From Pedobacter sp. BS3 (GTDB lineage: Bacteria; Bacteroidota; Bacteroidia; Sphingobacteriales; Sphingobacteriaceae), in contig NZ_VTRT01000003.1 of assembly GCF_008274585.1 (NCBI RefSeq), positions 558,001 to 622,000 on the forward strand: 64,000 bases of DNA, in the 5' to 3' direction. The notes under the pieces are model-generated. The model was not told where the DNA came from and made no database searches. It saw only the letters and a program-made list of their open reading frames with translations. Position 1 is the stretch's first letter; every line of letters begins with the position of its first letter. Below, in pieces: positions 8,046 to 40,066 of the stretch. A program made the translations under genes and the position numbers.

Positions 8046-9746
8046 TTAATAGTATAAAGCCTGTGGCTCGGCCTGGGATGTGTGCAAGGATCTGATATAA
8101 TGATCTAACTGCAGTAAAGCAGAAACAGCTACCGCATTACATCCCGGCCAATCCATTGTTAGTAATGGCCTGCCAAAACGTACATCGAAGCCCCAGGTAG
8201 AATATGCACCTGTTTTTTGCTGGGCTTTCACAATAGCGTTACCTGCATTTATGGCTTTGGTCAGGTAATCTTTATTCCGGGTAGCCCTGTGCAAGGCCAG
8301 TAACGACATGATCCACATGCCGGTATGTACCTCCATAGGCACATAACAGGTATATTGTTCCATTACTGTAGGTGTAGGACAATGGTTAGTAACACAGGTA
8401 TCGGTGGGCTGCCACATCACAAACTGGTCTTCAATATAACGGTTCAGCTTTTCAGCGATCTTTACCGAATCAGGATTTGTTTGCCCGTAATGGATCAGGT
8501 ACCTGATCATCTCGTTTGTATCCCAGTGTTCCAGGTTTTGAAAAGGAGCCCGGACACCTATATCTTCATACATGCCCTGCCATCTGCTATTATTGACCGG
8601 GTTATTCATTACCCATTCAATGGCCTTTTCGCGTGATGCTGTATATTTTGCGTTGGGTTCAATTTCTTCCAGGATACCAAAAAGCCTGGCCGGCGAAACC
8701 GCATTGGAGGTATACGCTTCAACAGTTTTACCATCCCGTGGATTTACCCGGTATGGCCACGAACCATCTTCTTCCTGCAATTCAACAAAAACATTAGCAA
8801 TATGGCGGGCATAATCCAGATATTTTTTATCGTTAAAGTGTCTGTATAAAGCTACCATAGCCTCTCCTACACGTGCCGCCCTGAACAACGTTATGTTTTT
8901 CCCTTCAATATATCCTTCGGTGCGGCCCTGCTCAATGGTAGAGAATGGAAATAATCCACAACGCCAATTAGCAGGGAGCCGGTTAGCCAGCAGCCAGTCG
9001 CCATATTGCTTAGCTTGTTTTAAAGCCGTTGGCGTTTGCCGGCTATCGGGAAATTGCCTGGCATAGTTCAGATAAGCAAATATAAAGCTGGGATGATGCA
9101 GAGCGGGAAAGGCCATTAGCCGGCGCTGTCCGCTGATACTTTCCTCGCAGCAGCTCCAGCATGAGCGTGGCATATCGCCTTCGAATGGTTCTACCTTATC
9201 CCGTGCGGGCGCAAGCAAATAAGCCATTGAACGCTCAATTGACTCTTTCCAGTTCAATGGTTCCTGTGCTTTACCATCAAAACCGGGCGATTTATGAAAC
9301 CGCCTGCGCCAGGCTGAACATAGCGGCTTATCGTCAGCATCAACAGCCCAGGCAATTATGTCGACCGGGCCCGTGTGGATACGTTGCCAGTCATTTTCCA
9401 TGTGATATTCGGGCTTATCTAAACGTATGGTCCGGGCTTTGGTATCTTTTGCGTCTGCAAAAGATACCATATAAGCTGCCGCACCTTTAATAGGTTCCCA
9501 TGTCCAAAGGGGGGCGTACACATAACGGGGACTGTATGTGTTCCAACCGGTCTGAATCAGGTTAACTTCAAAGCGTACTTTTTCCTTTTTCTCGTCAGCT
9601 TGTTTCAGTATGTGGCCTGGATCTCGGCGTTCAGCCCTTGCAAGATCTACCGGAAGCAAGGCAGCTCCTACGGCTAAACCTGCATGTCCTAAAAAGCTTC
9701 GCCTTGAATGGCCGGCTTTTCTAATATTTTGCTTTTTTTCACTCAT
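8046..9746 (-). CDS. Tat-exported protein with Ig-like and alpha/alpha-toroid domains
   Basis: 566 residues. A twin-arginine leader (SRRSFLGHAGLAVGAALL) ends near residue 40. Residues 55-170 look like a small beta-sandwich (YVYAPLWTWEPIKGAAAYMVSFADA). From about residue 180 there are helical pairs with aromatic and acidic residues (FVELQEEDGSWPYRVNPRDGKTVEAY, WDTNEMIRYLIHYG), as in (alpha/alpha)6-barrel glycosidases, lyases and uronyl epimerases. I cannot assign the exact family or catalytic residues. It is the last gene of the AraC-linked catabolic operon, 124 bp after the SSS transporter, so periplasmic processing of the operon's substrate is likely. Confidence 0.65.
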   Translation of the reverse strand: MSEKKQNIRKAGHSRRSFLGHAGLAVGAALLPVDLARAERRDPGHILKQADEKKEKVRFEVNLIQTGWNTYSPRYVYAPLWTWEPIKGAAAYMVSFADAKDTKARTIRLDKPEYHMENDWQRIHTGPVDIIAWAVDADDKPLCSAWRRRFHKSPGFDGKAQEPLNWKESIERSMAYLLAPARDKVEPFEGDMPRSCWSCCEESISGQRRLMAFPALHHPSFIFAYLNYARQFPDSRQTPTALKQAKQYGDWLLANRLPANWRCGLFPFSTIEQGRTEGYIEGKNITLFRAARVGEAMVALYRHFNDKKYLDYARHIANVFVELQEEDGSWPYRVNPRDGKTVEAYTSNAVSPARLFGILEEIEPNAKYTASREKAIEWVMNNPVNNSRWQGMYEDIGVRAPFQNLEHWDTNEMIRYLIHYGQTNPDSVKIAEKLNRYIEDQFVMWQPTDTCVTNHCPTPTVMEQYTCYVPMEVHTGMWIMSLLALHRATRNKDYLTKAINAGNAIVKAQQKTGAYSTWGFDVRFGRPLLTMDWPGCNAVAVSALLQLDHYIRSLHTSQAEPQALYY

Positions 9747-33523: not shown

Positions 33524-34249
33524 CTATGCATTAAACTCCTGTTCCAACAAAATTGATTTCGGAAAAAGGATATTATTTTCAAGGTGGATGTGCACATGCA
33601 GATCTTCCTCAAATGTTTTCAATGCCTCAAAAGCTACTTTATAGGTCGAGCAGGCATCATCCGCAGGGGTATAATTGTTGCTCAATCCGGCAATTTGCCG
33701 AAAACGCTCGCCCTCCTGGTTATGCTCTATCATCATCATTTGTACCGGGTTGCGCACCGTTCCGAACATGGGCAAAACCAATTCCGACTGTTCATTTTTT
33801 GCCTGAACCATTTTACGGATGAATGGAAAAAGCATCACTTCCTCTTTTTTCATGTGCATATTCAGCTCGGCAACCGATTCTGAAAACAGGTGATAGATAT
33901 CCTTAAGCTCCGGATGCCGCTGGCCATGCACCTTGCAGATCTTATCTAAGTAAGCAGTGATCTCGGGCGATCTCTCCCGTATGCCACCGTGATACTTCTT
34001 CTGGATAAAGTCGGCCAGAAAATCTAACGACCAGGTATTGTAGCCGCTATAATTCTCGGGACTTCCTTCTAAAGCCGATGCAATTTCCCGCTCCAGTAAC
34101 CGGGTATCCACATTTTCAGCTTTGCAGGCTTCATCTAACGTACGATCGCCATTACAGCAAAAATCAATATGATATTTTTGAAAAACGGATGCGGTTTTAT
34201 AGTTGTCTGCTACAATTGCGCCAACGGTTTTTTGTGCTAAATTTTCCAT
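33524..34249 (-). CDS. ric: Iron-sulfur cluster repair di-iron protein (RIC/ScdA/YtfE)
   Basis: 241 residues. The N-terminal DUF542/ScdA_N domain has HIDFCCNGDRTLDEAC. The hemerythrin-like domain has HMKKEEVMLFPFI, MMIEHNQEGERF and HVHIHLENNILFPK. These proteins repair Fe-S clusters damaged by nitric oxide or peroxide. It lies upstream of DUF488 in the same direction, with a 52-bp gap, and is preceded by an A-rich heptad tract (34269-34282). Confidence 0.93.
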   Translation of the reverse strand: MENLAQKTVGAIVADNYKTASVFQKYHIDFCCNGDRTLDEACKAENVDTRLLEREIASALEGSPENYSGYNTWSLDFLADFIQKKYHGGIRERSPEITAYLDKICKVHGQRHPELKDIYHLFSESVAELNMHMKKEEVMLFPFIRKMVQAKNEQSELVLPMFGTVRNPVQMMMIEHNQEGERFRQIAGLSNNYTPADDACSTYKVAFEALKTFEEDLHVHIHLENNILFPKSILLEQEFNA

Positions 34250-34374: not shown

Positions 34375-34815
34375 TTAAACAGTTTTAAACAGGCCTATGC
34401 CAAAAATAAACAGCCCTGCCACCTTAATTAATTCTCCAATTACATAATAGATGTGGTAGCTGGCCGATCCGGGTGTTTTACCGGCTATAAACATGGTAGC
34501 ACGGGCGTCAAGGGTAGGCAGCAGCCACAGGGTTTGAACCAGCAAGATCAGTATAACCACAATAATAGCCGGCATATTTGCAGGCAGAAAAAACGGTTTG
34601 GCCCTCAGGAACATGGTCAGGATAATGGCTATGGCAAATACCCATTCTATTTTATTTAAAACGCTGTATACCAGCCTGCCGATACCCAACCCCAGCGGCA
34701 TGGTAATACCCGGCGCACGAAATTTCAGCCAGGCTTCCAGGAAGCTGATAGCGCTTACAAAGCCGATCCATAAAAATACGCAGACAAGCACCAGGGGAAA
34801 TTTTACGGTTACCAT
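34375..34815 (-). CDS. Four-helix integral membrane protein
   Basis: 146 residues with four hydrophobic helices (FPLVLVCVFLWIGFVSA, IEWVFAIAIILTMFL, MPAIIVVILILLVQTLWLLP, IGELIKVAGLFIFGIGL) and short loops. No catalytic motif or Cys pair is visible. It is coupled by a 1-bp overlap (TAATG) to the truncated globin gene, suggesting a membrane partner in O2/NO handling. I do not recognise the family with certainty. Confidence 0.75.
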   Translation of the reverse strand: MVTVKFPLVLVCVFLWIGFVSAISFLEAWLKFRAPGITMPLGLGIGRLVYSVLNKIEWVFAIAIILTMFLRAKPFFLPANMPAIIVVILILLVQTLWLLPTLDARATMFIAGKTPGSASYHIYYVIGELIKVAGLFIFGIGLFKTV

Positions 34816-35216
34816 TATAAGATCTTTTTTAAAGGGTTCTCGCGGTAATAGTTGATTTTATATTCAAACATTTCGGCCATTTTATCGGCCCGCCATTTAG
34901 CTTCTTCGGCCTTTTCGCCGGTAAACAATTCATCAACCGTTTGGTAAAACAGCTTTAGCCATTGTTCAAAATGTGCATGATCTACCGGAAGATTAGCATG
35001 CGGAACAAACGGGCTGCCAAAATACGTGTGGTCTCCCAGCAGCACCGTTTGCCAGAAGGTGTACATTTTTTCCAGGTGCTGTGGCCAGCGATCCTGGATG
35101 CGCTCGTTAAATATCGGCGCAAGCAATTGATCATCCCGCACTTTGGTGTAAAAGGTGTCTACCAGTAATTTTACATCGTCCAGTGTAAGTATGTCTTTCG
35201 GCGTCTTCATCATCAT
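34815..35216 (-). CDS. Group III truncated hemoglobin
   Basis: 133 residues. The pattern LLVDTFYTKVRDDQLLAPIFN, WPQHLEKMYTFWQTVLLGDHTYFGSPFVPHANLPVDHAHFEQWLKLF is typical of group III truncated globins. The proximal His is in the DHAHFEQWL helix. Two or three ATGs in a row make the exact start uncertain by 1-2 residues. Such globins are linked to microaerobic or NO stress, consistent with the downstream cbb3 and upstream ric genes. Confidence 0.92.
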   Translation of the reverse strand: MMMKTPKDILTLDDVKLLVDTFYTKVRDDQLLAPIFNERIQDRWPQHLEKMYTFWQTVLLGDHTYFGSPFVPHANLPVDHAHFEQWLKLFYQTVDELFTGEKAEEAKWRADKMAEMFEYKINYYRENPLKKIL

Positions 35217-35217
35217 A

Positions 35218-35622
35218 TTATTTTATTGAAACATAGGTAACCAGGTAATACAGCGCCCAGCCTACAAAACCTATCATCAAAATCCATACCCATGACGGGA
35301 TACTGTGCGGCGTCTCGCTGCCGGTTATCAGGAATTTTTTCTGATCGCCTTTACCATACGCATTGATCATAATAGGTAGCACACCGTCAACCACGGCATT
35401 CTCCGAAATACCTTCTATAGCTATTGCCGGGCCGTTTCTCACCTCAAACGGAATCAGGCGTATACCTTCTTTTCCTGTAGGATCTTTGCTTACTATTTTA
35501 AGCGTATGCTGTCCGTCAACCAGCTTTCGGGTATCAAGCTCAAAATTTACCGGCGAAACAAACTCTGCGATAGGCTTTTCTTTATCGTCTATAAAAATAA
35601 ATATCCTGCTTTTATCTTCCAT
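35218..35622 (-). CDS. Ig-like, C-terminally anchored protein of the cbb3 operon
   Basis: 134 residues. The body is a beta-rich Ig-like domain (FELDTRKLVDGQHTLKIVSKDPTGKEGIRLIPFEVRNGP) with no heme motif, and the C-terminus has one membrane helix (WVWILMIGFVGWALYYLVTYV). It lies between the CxxC membrane protein and the globin gene. It may take a FixH/CcoH-like assembly role by position, but sequence support is weak. Confidence 0.65.
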   Translation of the reverse strand: MEDKSRIFIFIDDKEKPIAEFVSPVNFELDTRKLVDGQHTLKIVSKDPTGKEGIRLIPFEVRNGPAIAIEGISENAVVDGVLPIMINAYGKGDQKKFLITGSETPHSIPSWVWILMIGFVGWALYYLVTYVSIK

Positions 35623-35623
35623 G

Positions 35624-35896
35624 TTATTCCTGCTCTAAAACAAACCGTTTAATATGATTTTCTGATCTTTCGCCGGGACGGATAAGCCACTTTACCGAAA
35701 AAAACAAGGTAAACAGCACAATACCAACGGCAATATACACAATGACATAATCCCAGTTGCTTTGCGGGCCGGTACCGTGGGTAATGCCTCTTAAAATCCT
35801 GGGCTGCTGTTTCTCACATGCCGGACACGCCCATGCGGCCACGCTAAGCAGCAATGCCGGAAACAATAACATCATGCGCTTCATATATTTTTTCAT
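35624..35896 (-). CDS. Small exported membrane protein with CPAC motif
   Basis: 90 residues with a signal-like N-terminus (MKKYMKRMMLLFPALLLSVAAWACPAC), a Cys pair (CPAC) right after it and one membrane helix (VIVYIAVGIVLFTLFFSVKWLI). It overlaps ccoO by 4 bp (ATGA). The CxxC suggests a redox or metal-binding role in oxidase assembly; this is inferred. Confidence 0.65.
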   Translation of the reverse strand: MKKYMKRMMLLFPALLLSVAAWACPACEKQQPRILRGITHGTGPQSNWDYVIVYIAVGIVLFTLFFSVKWLIRPGERSENHIKRFVLEQE

Positions 35897-36909
35897 TTTT
35901 GAGCCGATTTTACTTTCACCGTTTCTATTAATTTTTTGATCTCATCAACCGTTACTTTGCGGGCATTATTTCCCCAGCTTGTTTTCTCATGGTTCATAAT
36001 AGCCGCAATCTCTTCGGGTTTGAGGTTATTGGTTGTGCCAATGGCCGGCATCGGGCCAAAGCCTTCCTGTATACGTCCGCTGTAACCGTTCATAATGATA
36101 TCTACCATCAGCTCCGGGTTATCGTCTAAAACTATTTTACTTCCTTTTAACGGCGGGAAAGCTCCTTTCAACCCTTCGCCATTAGCCTGGTGACAGCTCT
36201 GGCAATTAGCCGTATACAGTGATGCACCGTCTAATTGCTCTTCCTCTCCCGCTGCCCCGGGCTGCGCTTTGGGCGCCCGCTTATATAAAAATTCCGGAAC
36301 CGGGCTGCCGTCAGGTAATTTGGTTTGTTTGAGCGATTGCAGGTACGCCACCAGTTGCAATGCTTCTTTTTTAGCTACCACTTTACCTGCCGAGCCATCC
36401 AGATATTCTTCTGGTATATTAACCACAACATCGCCTTCGGCAGGATGCTTTTTAACCTCGAACATCCAGGGATAAGCCGGCATAACTGATTCTTTTACCA
36501 CGATACGCGGATTATACAAATGCACCAGGTTCCAGTCTAAACTGGGCTGGCGGTTACCGATATTGGTCAGATCGGGGCCGGTACGTTCTGTACCCATCAA
36601 CGTTGCGGTATTACGCCAGAAATCGGTACGGTGGATGCCTGCATAATCGGCAGCTATGCTGGGCCGCTCGCCCCAGGTTTTGTCCATATCCACATTACGC
36701 ACCTGCTGGGTATGACAGGCCACGCAGCCGTTGGCCACAAATACGGCTTTGCCGGCAATGGCATCTTCGCTCAGAGGCTCGGCATTTGGCAAAGGTTCAT
36801 AGTTACGCTGGTTGTTCAATGCCGGAAATATGGCTACCAGCATAGTCAGCACAACGAAAAACAGGAATGCCGTCCAGAAAAGTTTTTTATGATTATCAAA
36901 AAAATCCAT
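35893..36909 (-). CDS. ccoO: cbb3 cytochrome oxidase subunit II fused to a second c-type cytochrome domain
   Basis: 338 residues. One N-terminal membrane helix (LFWTAFLFFVVLTMLVAIF). The CcoO-type domain has the heme motif CVACH (FVANGCVACHTQQVRNVDMDKTWGERP). Residues 230-320 are another cytochrome c domain with CQSCH and Met in GPMPAIG. No separate ccoP gene is present, so this fusion probably carries both functions. It lies 51 bp after ccoN. Confidence 0.93.
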   Translation of the reverse strand: MDFFDNHKKLFWTAFLFFVVLTMLVAIFPALNNQRNYEPLPNAEPLSEDAIAGKAVFVANGCVACHTQQVRNVDMDKTWGERPSIAADYAGIHRTDFWRNTATLMGTERTGPDLTNIGNRQPSLDWNLVHLYNPRIVVKESVMPAYPWMFEVKKHPAEGDVVVNIPEEYLDGSAGKVVAKKEALQLVAYLQSLKQTKLPDGSPVPEFLYKRAPKAQPGAAGEEEQLDGASLYTANCQSCHQANGEGLKGAFPPLKGSKIVLDDNPELMVDIIMNGYSGRIQEGFGPMPAIGTTNNLKPEEIAAIMNHEKTSWGNNARKVTVDEIKKLIETVKVKSAQK

Positions 36910-36960: not shown

Positions 36961-39141
36961 TTAACCGGCTAATTCCTTTTCTTCGTTTAACGCAATATCC
37001 TGGCTTAACAGTTCAAATGCCTTTGTCTTTACATCGATGGTATTGTTGCGGGCAATCATCCTGTAAAAGTTATAGGCAAAAAACAAATGCGAGAGCCACA
37101 TCAGGCTTCCGCCGATGGCACGCCACAGCCAGAACGGAGCCATAAACACCACACCTTCAATAAATGGCTTCCCTTCCAGCCACATCAGTCCTTTCATGGT
37201 GCTGCCATACATTAACGGGATGGTATAAAACAACAAGCCGATCAATGCCAGCCAGAAGTGGGCTCCCACGGTTATCTGAGGCGGCTCTTTTCCCGTTAAA
37301 CGGGGAATTACGGCGTACATGCCCGCCCACAGGAAGAAGCAGATGATACCATACATGGTGAGGTGCGAGTGCGCCACCGTAAAATCGGTAAAATGCCAGA
37401 TGAGGTTAGTGGAGCGAAATGCTTCGGCCGTACCCTGCATAGAGCCGGTAAAGTAAAACACAATTCCCACCAGGAAAAACGGCAAGGTGTAGCTGCCAGC
37501 TATTTTGTGCCAGGCGCCCTTAAAGGTCATTAAAAAGTTGGTTGTTCCGGCAATTACCGGGATGGCCATTCCGGCGCTTCCCACAATAGCCACCGTTTGT
37601 AATGCCCACGGAATGGAGCTGAACACAAAGTGGTGTGTACCGATCAAGGTGTAAAACAGAATCTGTGTCCAGAAAGCCAGTATACCCAGGCTGTACGAAT
37701 AAATGGGTTTATTAAGCTGCTGTGGCAGGTAATAATACACAATACCAAGCGTGAACAGCATAAACCACATGCCCACGCCCTGGTGCATATAATAGCCCTG
37801 TATAATGGTTTCGCCCAGGCCATCCTGCCAAAGCGGAACGTAAGCCACAACGGCAATAACCAATGCAAACATTACCGCGGCTACAATGTACCAGTTTGAT
37901 ATGTATATTTCTTTGGTGGTACGGCGGGCAATGGTTTTCAGGTAATTGATCAGCGTAAGCACCAACCCGATGCCGAAAAGCAGCATAATGGGCCATATAT
38001 ATTCGCGATATTCGCCGCCGCCATTATTCAGGCCGGCCATTAAGCTGATCGAGCCTATTATTACCGCGGCATTAATTAAATAAAGTGCGTACCAGGCGGC
38101 TTTTAAGCTGTACAGGGGCGTATTGCTTACCCGCGGAACGACATAATAGCCTAAGCCTAACATCCCTAACGATGCCCATCCCCAGAATACCGAGTTGGTA
38201 TGTACCGGCCGTAAGCGGCCAAAGCTCAGCCAGCTGAAATGGTCGGCATCAGGAGCTACAAACTTAATACCCAGGTATTCGCCTAAGGTTGTTCCGAATA
38301 ACAGCCAGAAGGTAGCACAGCCGATGTACCACAATACCAACTTTGATAGCTGCGGGTCGATATTCGGGCGCTTCTGCGCTTTCTTTTTAACAGCTACAAT
38401 AGGCAAAACGGCTTTATGATCTATATTGTTCAGCAAGCCAATTTCATCCTCGGCCGGAAGATTCCCTGATAATTCGGTGTGGCTCAACTGGAAATCCAGC
38501 GCAGCCTTGCGTTTTTGCAATTCCGGCGTAATGGCTTCTGCCGGTAAGGTTTTAAGGTAGGCCGCCAGCCGTTCGGCTTCGGCCAGATTTTGCTTATTCT
38601 GGTATTGCTTCAGGCTATTTATAATTTTAACAACCAGCAGCAGTATACCAACCACAATGGGTGTAAGAATTAAAACAACAGTAATGATAATCCCCCCTTC
38701 GCTGCTTAAAGAAGCCGATGCCGCATTGCTGGGCTGTGCCAACAAAGCGGTGCTGTTGCCGCATAAAAACAAGCCGGTTAGCAGGCTTAGCAGCTTCGCT
38801 TTGGTGTGCCTGCCTTTTCCCGGAGCAGCTTTCTGCCTGCTTACATTTATCAGCGTTTCAATCTGGCCGCTATCCAGGTTGGTGAGATAAGCGTCGAGCA
38901 TGGTTTGTTTTGAGGCTTCCTTAATGTCGTTTTCGCGGGATGCAATGGCTTTGGTTTTTACCAGCAACCAGCTGACTGCTACAGCAATTACTACCAGGAG
39001 CAAAATGCCTATACTGATCAAGAAAGCATCACCATAGGCAAAATTACCTGCTCCCGCAGAAGCTGCCTGAGCTTTTGCCGGAGCCATCATCCCTCCTAAA
39101 AGGAGCATGCAGATTGCGAATTGTGAAAGTTTAATATACAT
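36961..39141 (-). CDS. ccoN: cbb3 cytochrome oxidase catalytic subunit I with long N-terminal extension
   Basis: 726 residues, about 250 longer than classical CcoN. The catalytic core starts near residue 265 (LVLWYIGCATFWLLFGTTLGEYLG). Likely heme or copper ligands are in RLRPVHTNSVFWGWA, MHQGVGMWFMLF, GTHHFVFSSIP and VAHSHLTMYGIICF. The extension holds two hydrophobic modules, each of a signal-like segment plus a helix (AYGDAFLISIGILLLVVIAVAVS and GGIIITVVLILTPIVVGILLLVV) and soluble linkers. A half-site of the Rrf2 palindrome lies just upstream of its start. Confidence 0.93.
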   Translation of the reverse strand: MYIKLSQFAICMLLLGGMMAPAKAQAASAGAGNFAYGDAFLISIGILLLVVIAVAVSWLLVKTKAIASRENDIKEASKQTMLDAYLTNLDSGQIETLINVSRQKAAPGKGRHTKAKLLSLLTGLFLCGNSTALLAQPSNAASASLSSEGGIIITVVLILTPIVVGILLLVVKIINSLKQYQNKQNLAEAERLAAYLKTLPAEAITPELQKRKAALDFQLSHTELSGNLPAEDEIGLLNNIDHKAVLPIVAVKKKAQKRPNIDPQLSKLVLWYIGCATFWLLFGTTLGEYLGIKFVAPDADHFSWLSFGRLRPVHTNSVFWGWASLGMLGLGYYVVPRVSNTPLYSLKAAWYALYLINAAVIIGSISLMAGLNNGGGEYREYIWPIMLLFGIGLVLTLINYLKTIARRTTKEIYISNWYIVAAVMFALVIAVVAYVPLWQDGLGETIIQGYYMHQGVGMWFMLFTLGIVYYYLPQQLNKPIYSYSLGILAFWTQILFYTLIGTHHFVFSSIPWALQTVAIVGSAGMAIPVIAGTTNFLMTFKGAWHKIAGSYTLPFFLVGIVFYFTGSMQGTAEAFRSTNLIWHFTDFTVAHSHLTMYGIICFFLWAGMYAVIPRLTGKEPPQITVGAHFWLALIGLLFYTIPLMYGSTMKGLMWLEGKPFIEGVVFMAPFWLWRAIGGSLMWLSHLFFAYNFYRMIARNNTIDVKTKAFELLSQDIALNEEKELAG

Positions 39142-39164
39142 ATTATAATATAATAAGACCTTTT

Positions 39165-39175
39165 TATCTTTTATT
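39165..39175. promoter_or_regulatory. Half-site of the Rrf2-type palindrome before ccoN
   Basis: TATCTTTTATT here is identical to one arm of the perfect palindrome at 39662-39687. The other arm is only partly conserved. It lies 24 bp upstream of the ccoN ATG. Confidence 0.45.
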
Positions 39176-39189
39176 AAGTTAAAAAAATG

Positions 39190-39624
39190 CTAATTTCTTC
39201 TCAGGTAGCTGATTCCGGCATTAAGCTCATCATTAAAGTTTTCTACAGTTACCGAGCCCAGCATAATTTGCAGCTGCTCCCTGATGGTTTTGAACTTGCT
39301 GTGCAACGGGCAGGGTTTGATCTCAGAGCATTGCTTTAACCCCAGGGCGCACCCGGTAAATATGCCATCGCCGTCAATGGCTTCTACCACGTCTGCCAGC
39401 GTATGTTTTTTAGATACCTCATCCAGGTAAAAACCCCCGTTCGGCCCTTTCAGTGATTGCACCAATCCTCTCTTGCCTAAATCCTGGAGTATTTTCGCAA
39501 TAAAATGCTCGGGCGAGTCAATACCTTTGGCAATTTCCTTTATCCCCACCCTGCTTCCATCTGCTGATTTATGAGCAATGAATATTACCGCCCGGATTGC
39601 GTATTTACACGTTTTTGAGAACAT
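39190..39624 (-). CDS. Rrf2 family regulator (NsrR-like)
   Basis: 144 residues. The winged helix includes MFSKTCKYAIRAVIFIA, GIKEIAKGIDSPEHFIAKILQDLGKRGLVQSLKGPNGGFYL. The cluster-binding cysteines are in GCALGLKQCSEIKPCPLHS (C-x6-C-x5-C), close to the NsrR/IscR pattern and suited to an NO- or redox-sensitive Fe-S cluster. It lies directly upstream of ccoN in the same direction. Its own promoter contains a perfect palindrome whose arm recurs before ccoN, suggesting auto- and operon control. Confidence 0.92.
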   Translation of the reverse strand: MFSKTCKYAIRAVIFIAHKSADGSRVGIKEIAKGIDSPEHFIAKILQDLGKRGLVQSLKGPNGGFYLDEVSKKHTLADVVEAIDGDGIFTGCALGLKQCSEIKPCPLHSKFKTIREQLQIMLGSVTVENFNDELNAGISYLRRN

Positions 39625-39641
39625 CGTATCGCTTTACGCGG

Positions 39642-39649
39642 CAAATATA
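39642..39649 (-). promoter_or_regulatory. -7 element of the Rrf2 gene promoter
   Basis: The minus strand reads TATATTTG here, matching TAnnTTTG, about 18 bp upstream of the ATG. The place expected for a -33 element is occupied by the palindrome at 39662-39687. Confidence 0.5.
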
Positions 39650-39661
39650 CAGGTTATTTTT

Positions 39662-39687
39662 AATAAAAGATATTTTTATCTTTTATT
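39662..39687. promoter_or_regulatory. Perfect palindromic operator candidate for the Rrf2 regulator
   Basis: Arms AATAAAAGATA and TATCTTTTATT are fully complementary, with a 4-nt T spacer. It covers the -33 region of the Rrf2 gene promoter, 38 bp upstream of its start. Confidence 0.6.
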
Positions 39688-39881
39688 TTTAAATTACATT
39701 AAAAGCACGCTATAAACGTTACATTTAATAGATCACTAACAAGCTGAACAATTCTGTTTTTTGAAAAGCACTTGCAATAGCATTTGGGTACTGATAGTCC
39801 CGCCATCCGCTATAGCCCTCATTGCATTCGGGGCTGCCGCTCCTGTCCGGGTTTAGCTTGGTCAGGACAGTGCTACTCTGA

Positions 39882-39949
39882 AACTTTGATACCTTTTAGA
39901 AGGCTGTCAAAGTTACCGCAGACAGCGTTTGGAACGCTGTCTGCGGTAA
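39882..39949. repeat. Composite repeat: 33-bp inverted repeat plus 17-bp perfect hairpin
   Basis: 39882-39914 starts AACTTTGA and ends TCAAAGTT, as an inverted repeat. 39913-39929 (TTACCGCAGACAGCGTT) and 39933-39949 pair perfectly with a 3-nt loop. A degraded second copy of the composite is at 40010-40070, reaching the M61 stop codon. Confidence 0.8.
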
Positions 39950-39953
39950 AATC

Positions 39954-40007
39954 GTAAAAGCCTGGAGGCTTTTGAGTAACAGCACTAAGCAGAGCTTAGC
40001 GCTATCG
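39954..40007. repeat. 58-bp double-hairpin element, copy 3 (diverged)
   Basis: Same two-hairpin order as copies 1 and 2 (AAAAGCC...GGCTTTT, then AGCACTAAGC...GCTTAGCGCTATCG) with a few substitutions and a shorter second loop. It lies between the two composite repeats. Confidence 0.8.
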
Positions 40008-40066
40008 AGAACTTTGATACCTTTTAGAAAGTTGTCAAAGTTAGTGCAGACAGCCATTTACGTTGT

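Follow-up and report, generated by a model that had tools for sequence, protein, structure and literature searches.

A palindrome ahead of an Rrf2-family regulator gene as a probable operator of nitric oxide-handling genes in Bacteroidota

A palindrome lying upstream of an Rrf2-family regulator gene (rrf2) in the window, which is the whole 64,000-nucleotide stretch of DNA analyzed here, is very probably a switch for nitric oxide (NO)-handling genes in many Bacteroidota. Judged from sequence, it is probably the operator at which an NsrR-like repressor of the Rrf2 family, found in a Bacteroidota clade, would control the rrf2 operon and other operator-bearing genes in response to NO. The shared sites strongly suggest both autoregulation and control of NO genes by Rrf2. 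An autoregulated, NO-type Rrf2 repressor is ordinary in principle; what is new is the detail, namely the operator, the regulon, a leader box in Bacteroidota and an oxidase subfamily. No description of this motif or of a Bacteroidota NsrR regulon was found in the openly accessible literature searched, and the Bacteroidetes collection of RegPrecise 3.0 covers Bacteroidaceae only, according to the part of its description consulted (PMC3840689).

The palindrome upstream of rrf2

The candidate operator, AATAAAAGATA-TTTT-TATCTTTTATT, occupies positions 39662–39687 and is, as originally predicted, a perfect 11+4+11 palindrome on the −33 region of the Rrf2 gene. It ends 12 nt ahead of the presumptive −7 box of that gene, TATATTTG (39642–39649, minus strand), which has the form TAnnTTTG, and therefore covers the expected −33 region of rrf2; the −33/−7 consensus, TTTG/TANNTTTG, was taken from the portion of PMC6847099 consulted.

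By itself, the palindrome is only mildly unusual compared with chance. Perfect inverted repeats with 11-bp arms and a spacer of 0–10 occurred at three distinct places in the window, while twenty Markov-1 windows contained eight in total (0.4 per window), one of the eight with a spacer of 4. When one mismatch was allowed, the arm matched the window eight times against a shuffle mean of 3.8, and eight or more matches were reached in 5 of 100 shuffles, which is near chance. The site is AT-rich, and the rate of such repeats in random windows would allow for an accident of base composition. However, the palindrome is kept at a fixed place in Sphingobacteriaceae, Chitinophagaceae, Cytophagales and Flavobacteriia, and it is this conservation that refutes a chance AT-rich inverted repeat, now exceedingly improbable, and that leads us to count the palindrome as non-random.

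The relatives used were 80 named Bacteroidota loci with Rrf2 proteins 56–69% identical, the best 80 of 572 confirmed matches, more distant loci having been left out. A site matching at 17 or more of 22 positions was present within 200 nt upstream of rrf2 in 70 of these best 80 loci and absent upstream of rrf2 in the other 10; mononucleotide shuffles of the rrf2 upstream regions yielded such a site in 16 of 1600 cases. The generalized operator consensus built from the relatives is AATAAAAGA-N8-TCTTTTATT. It retains the palindrome, whose loss from a consensus of relatives had been named beforehand as grounds for abandoning the prediction. In 82 sources, comprising the window, the same 80 of 572 loci and locus L003 (described below), 130 sites matched at 15 or more of 18 positions, compared with 8 for the reversed pattern, and 3 of 295 upstream regions of unrelated ORFs carried a site of this quality. 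The operator was followed by TAnnTTTG within 34 nt in 68 of 77 cases, 53 of these 68 at a distance of 13–16 nt, against a shuffled rate of 3%.

Searches of whole genomes agreed to different degrees. The consensus at up to one mismatch was found at 28 places in 18 genomes among 20 of the 80 named genomes (control, 2). Its 16-position core, at the same stringency, occurred at 42 places in 60 relatives versus 26 in the control, a count too weak to stand alone. The original prediction had proposed a genome search for the palindrome; the 26-mer at up to three mismatches returned only the window copy (no mismatch) and C23:169503 (one mismatch) from the 4.81-Mb genome to which the window belongs, with none in the control. 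The consensus at up to three mismatches showed no excess in this genome (17 places, reversed control 17), where a handful of top sites are set apart from the background by score alone. Within the window, a matrix built from the sites of 77 relatives ranked the palindrome first, at 33.4, and a site ahead of the oxidase gene ccoN second, at 16.3, the best score across 20 Markov-1 windows being 10.6. The operator was absent from Rrf2 genes located directly behind RIC (L038, L039, L053 and L055) and mostly absent where Rrf2 was less than about 50% identical.

The regulator and its candidate targets

Domain matches, alignment and fold identify the 144-aa product of rrf2 (39190–39624, minus strand) as an Rrf2-family regulator, passing the superfamily cut-offs of PF02082 (94.6; cut-off 30) and TIGR00738 (95.3; cut-off 73.3). 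The protein had been expected to keep three cysteines, but it has four (Cys6, Cys92, Cys99 and Cys105), all of which, like His108, are invariant in 55 aligned sequences, consisting of the window protein and 54 of the 80 loci (best 80 of 572 matches). Cys92, Cys99 and Cys105 correspond to the three cysteine ligands of NsrR. The fourth NsrR ligand, Asp8 from the other monomer, is absent: residue 7, which aligns with residue 8 of both NsrR and IscR (register, profile 4–128 to 5n07 5–128), is Lys in the window and Glu in at least 90% of relatives. The invariant His108 lies three residues past Cys105, as does the His ligand of IscR, and this pair aligns with IscR Cys104 and His107. Neither equivalog model was satisfied, with 37.5 of the 182 bits called for by PRK11014 (NsrR) and 60.6 of 207.55 by TIGR02010 (IscR).

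An AlphaFold2 model of the protein (pLDDT 91.9) matched CymR, IscR, NsrR and RsrR structures at Z 13–16, including the NsrR–DNA complex 7b0c at Z 14.6 and 3.1 Å over 132 residues; since all four are structurally close, the fold does not decide the sub-family. The description of the protein as NsrR-like thus stands as a likeness, but does not extend to membership, given the PRK11014 score and the residue at the Asp8 position. On present evidence, this Rrf2 probably acts like NsrR, yet is not an NsrR member by the tests made.

The genes that carry the operator resemble an NsrR regulon for NO detoxification (hmp, ric and globin), with operators or boxes before hmp, trHb and RIC in relatives. The consensus lies ahead of flavohaemoglobin, truncated globin and hemerythrin genes and, more weakly, nosZ genes. 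Operators were found before hmp (L066 and L073, and in a shared divergent region in L063, L078, L113 and L118), truncated globin (L072, L073 and L106), hemerythrin-PAS (L122, L124, L127 and L131) and DUF2249 genes (L076 and L095, and also Chitinophaga rupis). Family checks covered one member each of hmp and hemerythrin-PAS, and the other target families were assigned by homology or by eye; curated cut-offs were passed by hmp (PRK13289, 508.6; cut-off 432) and RIC (231.9; cut-off 204.7). By the grouping given in the consulted part of PMC1274295, most operator targets are NO and denitrification genes. Sites inside ORFs or beside unrelated genes (L071, L094, L112, L117, L133, L137 and L179) may be due to chance.

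In the genome of the window, the matrix scores were 34.1 for a U32-peptidase gene, 33.4 for rrf2, 26.4 for the gene of a 404-aa membrane protein, 21.5 for nosZ and 16.3 for the ccoN site, and the highest among 11 other scored places was 14.3. The nosZ site is operator-like and lies 9 nt ahead of a Sec-type nosZ (N2O reductase) that passes TIGR04246 (949.7; cut-off 625). To our knowledge, neither the U32 gene nor the 404-aa protein has a role in NO metabolism or denitrification. At the U32 locus (L003:5504–5529, corresponding to C23:169503), a zero-mismatch operator sits just upstream of the gene, behind an RND efflux operon, and the link to NO is not obvious. The 404-aa protein (L173:1724–2938), 37 nt from its operator, contains the sequence HGHSHFAFSGW and has no Pfam or NCBIfam match; L074, L083, L086 and L098 contain homologues close to genes for RIC or a globin.

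At L174 (C12:398000–412000 of the same genome), the nos operon diverges from a DUF2249-RIC gene, DUF1858, an NnrS-like protein, DUF59 and a second Rrf2 paralogue. This second Rrf2 of the clade (C12:409144; 42% identical), beside the nos/NnrS-like cluster, could bind some of the candidate sites. The DUF2249-RIC site (C12:405465) was dropped as an operator, with a matrix score of 2.1.

The leader box and the oxidase operon

A single palindrome had been predicted to link the regulator to both its own gene and ccoN. The part concerning rrf2 is borne out by conservation, but what lies before ccoN is an element of another kind, with a fixed direction. The arm TATCTTTTATT does recur, at 39165–39175, 23 nt ahead of the ATG (39141, minus strand); the full site, however, is a non-palindromic 26-nt leader box at 39150–39175 (minus strand), not simply a second palindrome. 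The window copy, AATAAAAGATAAAAAGGTCTTATTAT, lies in the 48-nt spacer between rrf2 and ccoN, ends 8 nt before the ATG and matches the general form of the box, AATAAAAGAYAAAAAGGTMTTAATAT, at 23 of 24 positions.

The box was present at 18 or more of 24 positions in 55 of 81 rrf2-downstream spacers (loci from the best 80 of 572 matches), usually 12–15 nt past the rrf2 stop, and it is kept regardless of whether the next gene is ccoN, hmp, trHb, the gene of a 146-aa membrane protein or RIC. Because it is a different, directional element in a presumably transcribed spacer, conserved whichever gene follows, the box is perhaps something other than an ordinary operator for Rrf2. It also occurs ahead of hmp, trHb, RIC and hemerythrin genes. 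In separately promoted genes, the order was operator, TAnnTTTG, box and ATG in L073, L078, L108, L113, L118, L127 and L140; among the 25 places listed, several (L063, L066, L131 and L135) lacked an exact TAnnTTTG. For 63 boxes matching at 21 or more of 24 positions, a same-strand ORF start fell within −30 to +60 nt in 51 and none was found by that rule in 12, while an ORF start on the opposite strand only was near none of the 63. At up to three mismatches, the box occurred 18 times in 16 of 21 whole genomes, with no occurrence of the reversed control. In 60 relatives, it was found in nine genomes (control, 0), all nine being among the 26 of 60 with an Rrf2 match at E ≤ 1e-30 (P 2e-4, which ignores relatedness and is thus not a clean probability).

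The left half of the box equals an operator half-site, whereas the right half, GGTMTTAATAT, differs from the palindrome in a consistent manner and with a constant orientation. In 33 of 54 pairs, the tetramer at box positions 8–11 was identical to one of the half-sites in the operator of that locus, compared with a shuffle mean of 24.2, and 33 or more were reached in 10 of 10,000 shuffles, a count that ignores relatedness.

These features bear differently on what the box might be. That it is an ordinary degenerate Rrf2 operator, acting as a roadblock or by looping with the upstream operator 512 bp away, has a little under an even chance of being right. The left half, its tendency to covary with the local operator and the confinement of the box to genomes with this Rrf2 clade suggest that the same protein may touch the box; the covariation count and the P value take no account of relatedness, and a simple operator requires neither a fixed right half nor a single direction, so that something beyond an operator is called for. 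The box could instead be an RNA element, that is, a translation-initiation or leader signal of the regulon that shares the half-site by descent from the operator, a possibility about which we are rather doubtful. In the seven separately promoted loci listed above, it falls after the −7 box and before the ATG, which fits this reading, as does its being directional and little structured, in a phylum that works without Shine–Dalgarno pairing and favors an upstream A (PMC6847099, part consulted). On the other hand, the distance from box to ATG ranges from about 0 to over 40 nt, and a core lacking the greater part of the left half was found at 40 places in 21 genomes, versus 41 in the control. Being no commoner than its control, this core is no translation signal of Bacteroidota at large. 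A promoter function for the box itself was ruled out at copies with TAnnTTTG just upstream, a ruling that covers those copies and not the rrf2-downstream ones. An RNA hairpin in the box is weak, the folds differing among six sequences.

Most likely, the box serves Rrf2 as a weak downstream operator while also being under constraint as an mRNA leader. More tentatively, and with the odds somewhat against it, we propose that it combines an operator half with a half that is an RNA or early-transcription signal, and that it marks the interval from −7 box to start codon in NO-defense genes across Bacteroidota. On this view, it would add to the Rrf2 regulon a second level of control after initiation, by a roadblock or at translation, and the genes so controlled would include an NO-induced, cbb3-like oxidase subfamily without Glu323 that is perhaps NO-tolerant or NO-consuming.

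Downstream of the box, all on the minus strand, are ccoN (36961–39141), encoding a divergent cbb3-type CcoN with a COX1 domain after an N-terminal extension of ~265 aa; a CcoO/FixO-like subunit fused to a second cytochrome c domain (35893–36909); a 90-aa protein (p90; 35624–35896) with CPAC and a hydrophobic stretch; a 134-aa protein (p134; 35218–35622); a truncated (bacterial-like) globin (34815–35216); a 146-aa membrane protein (34375–34815) whose homologue in Chryseobacterium loci is DUF4149-like; and a RIC/ScdA/YtfE iron–sulfur cluster repair di-iron protein (33524–34249; TIGR03652, 227.4; cut-off 204.7). The 90-aa and 134-aa proteins have no Pfam match, are conserved in the operon and are possible assembly or accessory subunits. 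A CcoN 59–72% identical was encoded near rrf2 in 28 of the 80 loci (best 80 of 572 matches), usually with CcoO, p90, p134 and the globin.

In these 28 proteins and that of the window, numbered as in Pseudomonas stutzeri CcoN (3mk7), His 60, 207, 257, 258 and 345 and Tyr251 are kept in 29 of 29 and His347 in 28 of 29, one having Asn. We take the conserved His residues to be the haem and CuB ligands and Tyr251 the active-site Tyr expected of a cbb3 CcoN. Unlike the P. stutzeri protein, the window type has Gln at Glu323 in 29 of 29 and the long N-terminal extension. With active-site Tyr and His ligands retained, a NOR-type NO reductase is disfavored. The window CcoN scored 245.1 against the ccoN equivalog TIGR00780, below its cut-off of 583.15, and a second CcoN in the same genome (30% identical) passed (638 vs 583), so that the window CcoN is a specialized paralogue. 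NO tolerance or NO turnover by this CcoN is speculation.

Proposed mechanism, signal and related systems

Without NO, an Fe–S-loaded Rrf2 dimer would occupy the palindrome at the −33 region, blocking the rrf2 promoter, and the block would extend to a predicted rrf2-ccoN-ccoO-p90-p134-trHb-TM-RIC operon. NO would damage the cluster, the dimer would leave and the operon would be induced, together with the operator-bearing nos, 404-aa membrane protein and U32-peptidase genes of the same genome, and with hmp, trHb and hemerythrin genes in relatives. The 26-nt box before ccoN would be another conserved element, one whose action comes past the promoter.

We infer NO as the signal from the genes; an O2, iron or Fe–S signal would fit the Rrf2 protein equally well. 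With operator and regulon unchanged, Rrf2 might respond to O2/redox or Fe–S status like IscR, NO being one of several agents that destroy the cluster. The IscR model outscores the NsrR model (60.6 vs 37.5 bits), His108 aligns with IscR His107, residue 7 is Lys instead of the NsrR acid, an oxidase and a globin are among the operon's products, and the best structural matches are CymR and IscR, though within about 1 Z of NsrR. This reading is nevertheless unlikely: in relatives, the genes preceded by an operator or a box make up the classical NO set (hmp, trHb, RIC, hemerythrin and nos), and the sole Fe–S assembly gene among the targets read was DUF59 (FeS_assembly_P), inside the NnrS-like cluster.

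The preferred, NO-responsive system shares with NsrR of Streptomyces coelicolor and Escherichia coli the Rrf2 fold, three Cys in the C-terminal loop, autoregulation (here predicted) and hmp and ric-type targets (PMC1274295 and PMC5411485, in the parts consulted). It differs from NsrR in the extra invariant Cys6 and the substitution at the Asp8 position, in a cbb3-like oxidase operon as target, and in its 26-bp operator, compared with the 23-bp NsrR site described in the consulted part of PMC9338935. IscR also has the Rrf2 fold, but the neighbors here are NO genes. HcpR, a CRP/FNR-family nitrosative regulator of the same phylum (Bacteroides and Porphyromonas), controls hcp and, in B. fragilis, dnrN (ric), but belongs to an unrelated protein family and recognizes the motif GTAACnnnnGTTAC (PMC1274295, part consulted).

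The palindrome offers an operator through which NO control can be tested in Sphingobacteriia, Chitinophagia, Cytophagia and Flavobacteriia, groups in which the literature searched described no NsrR-type regulon. The leader box is a defined sequence with which to ask how Bacteroidota, lacking Shine–Dalgarno pairing, add control past promoter escape, and the conserved operon links a divergent cbb3-like oxidase to NO defense.

Other repeats were seen in the window. The intergenic region at 39880–40060, terminator-like or a small repeat, has a ~45-nt unit in two similar copies (ACTTTGATACCTTTTAGAA...GTCAAAGTTA) together with a GC-rich hairpin with 17-bp arms at 39913–39949. A perfect inverted repeat, TGGTATCTTTTG...CAAAAGATACCA, with arms of 13 bp at its widest, lies at 9440–9469 in an arrangement unrelated to that of the operator.
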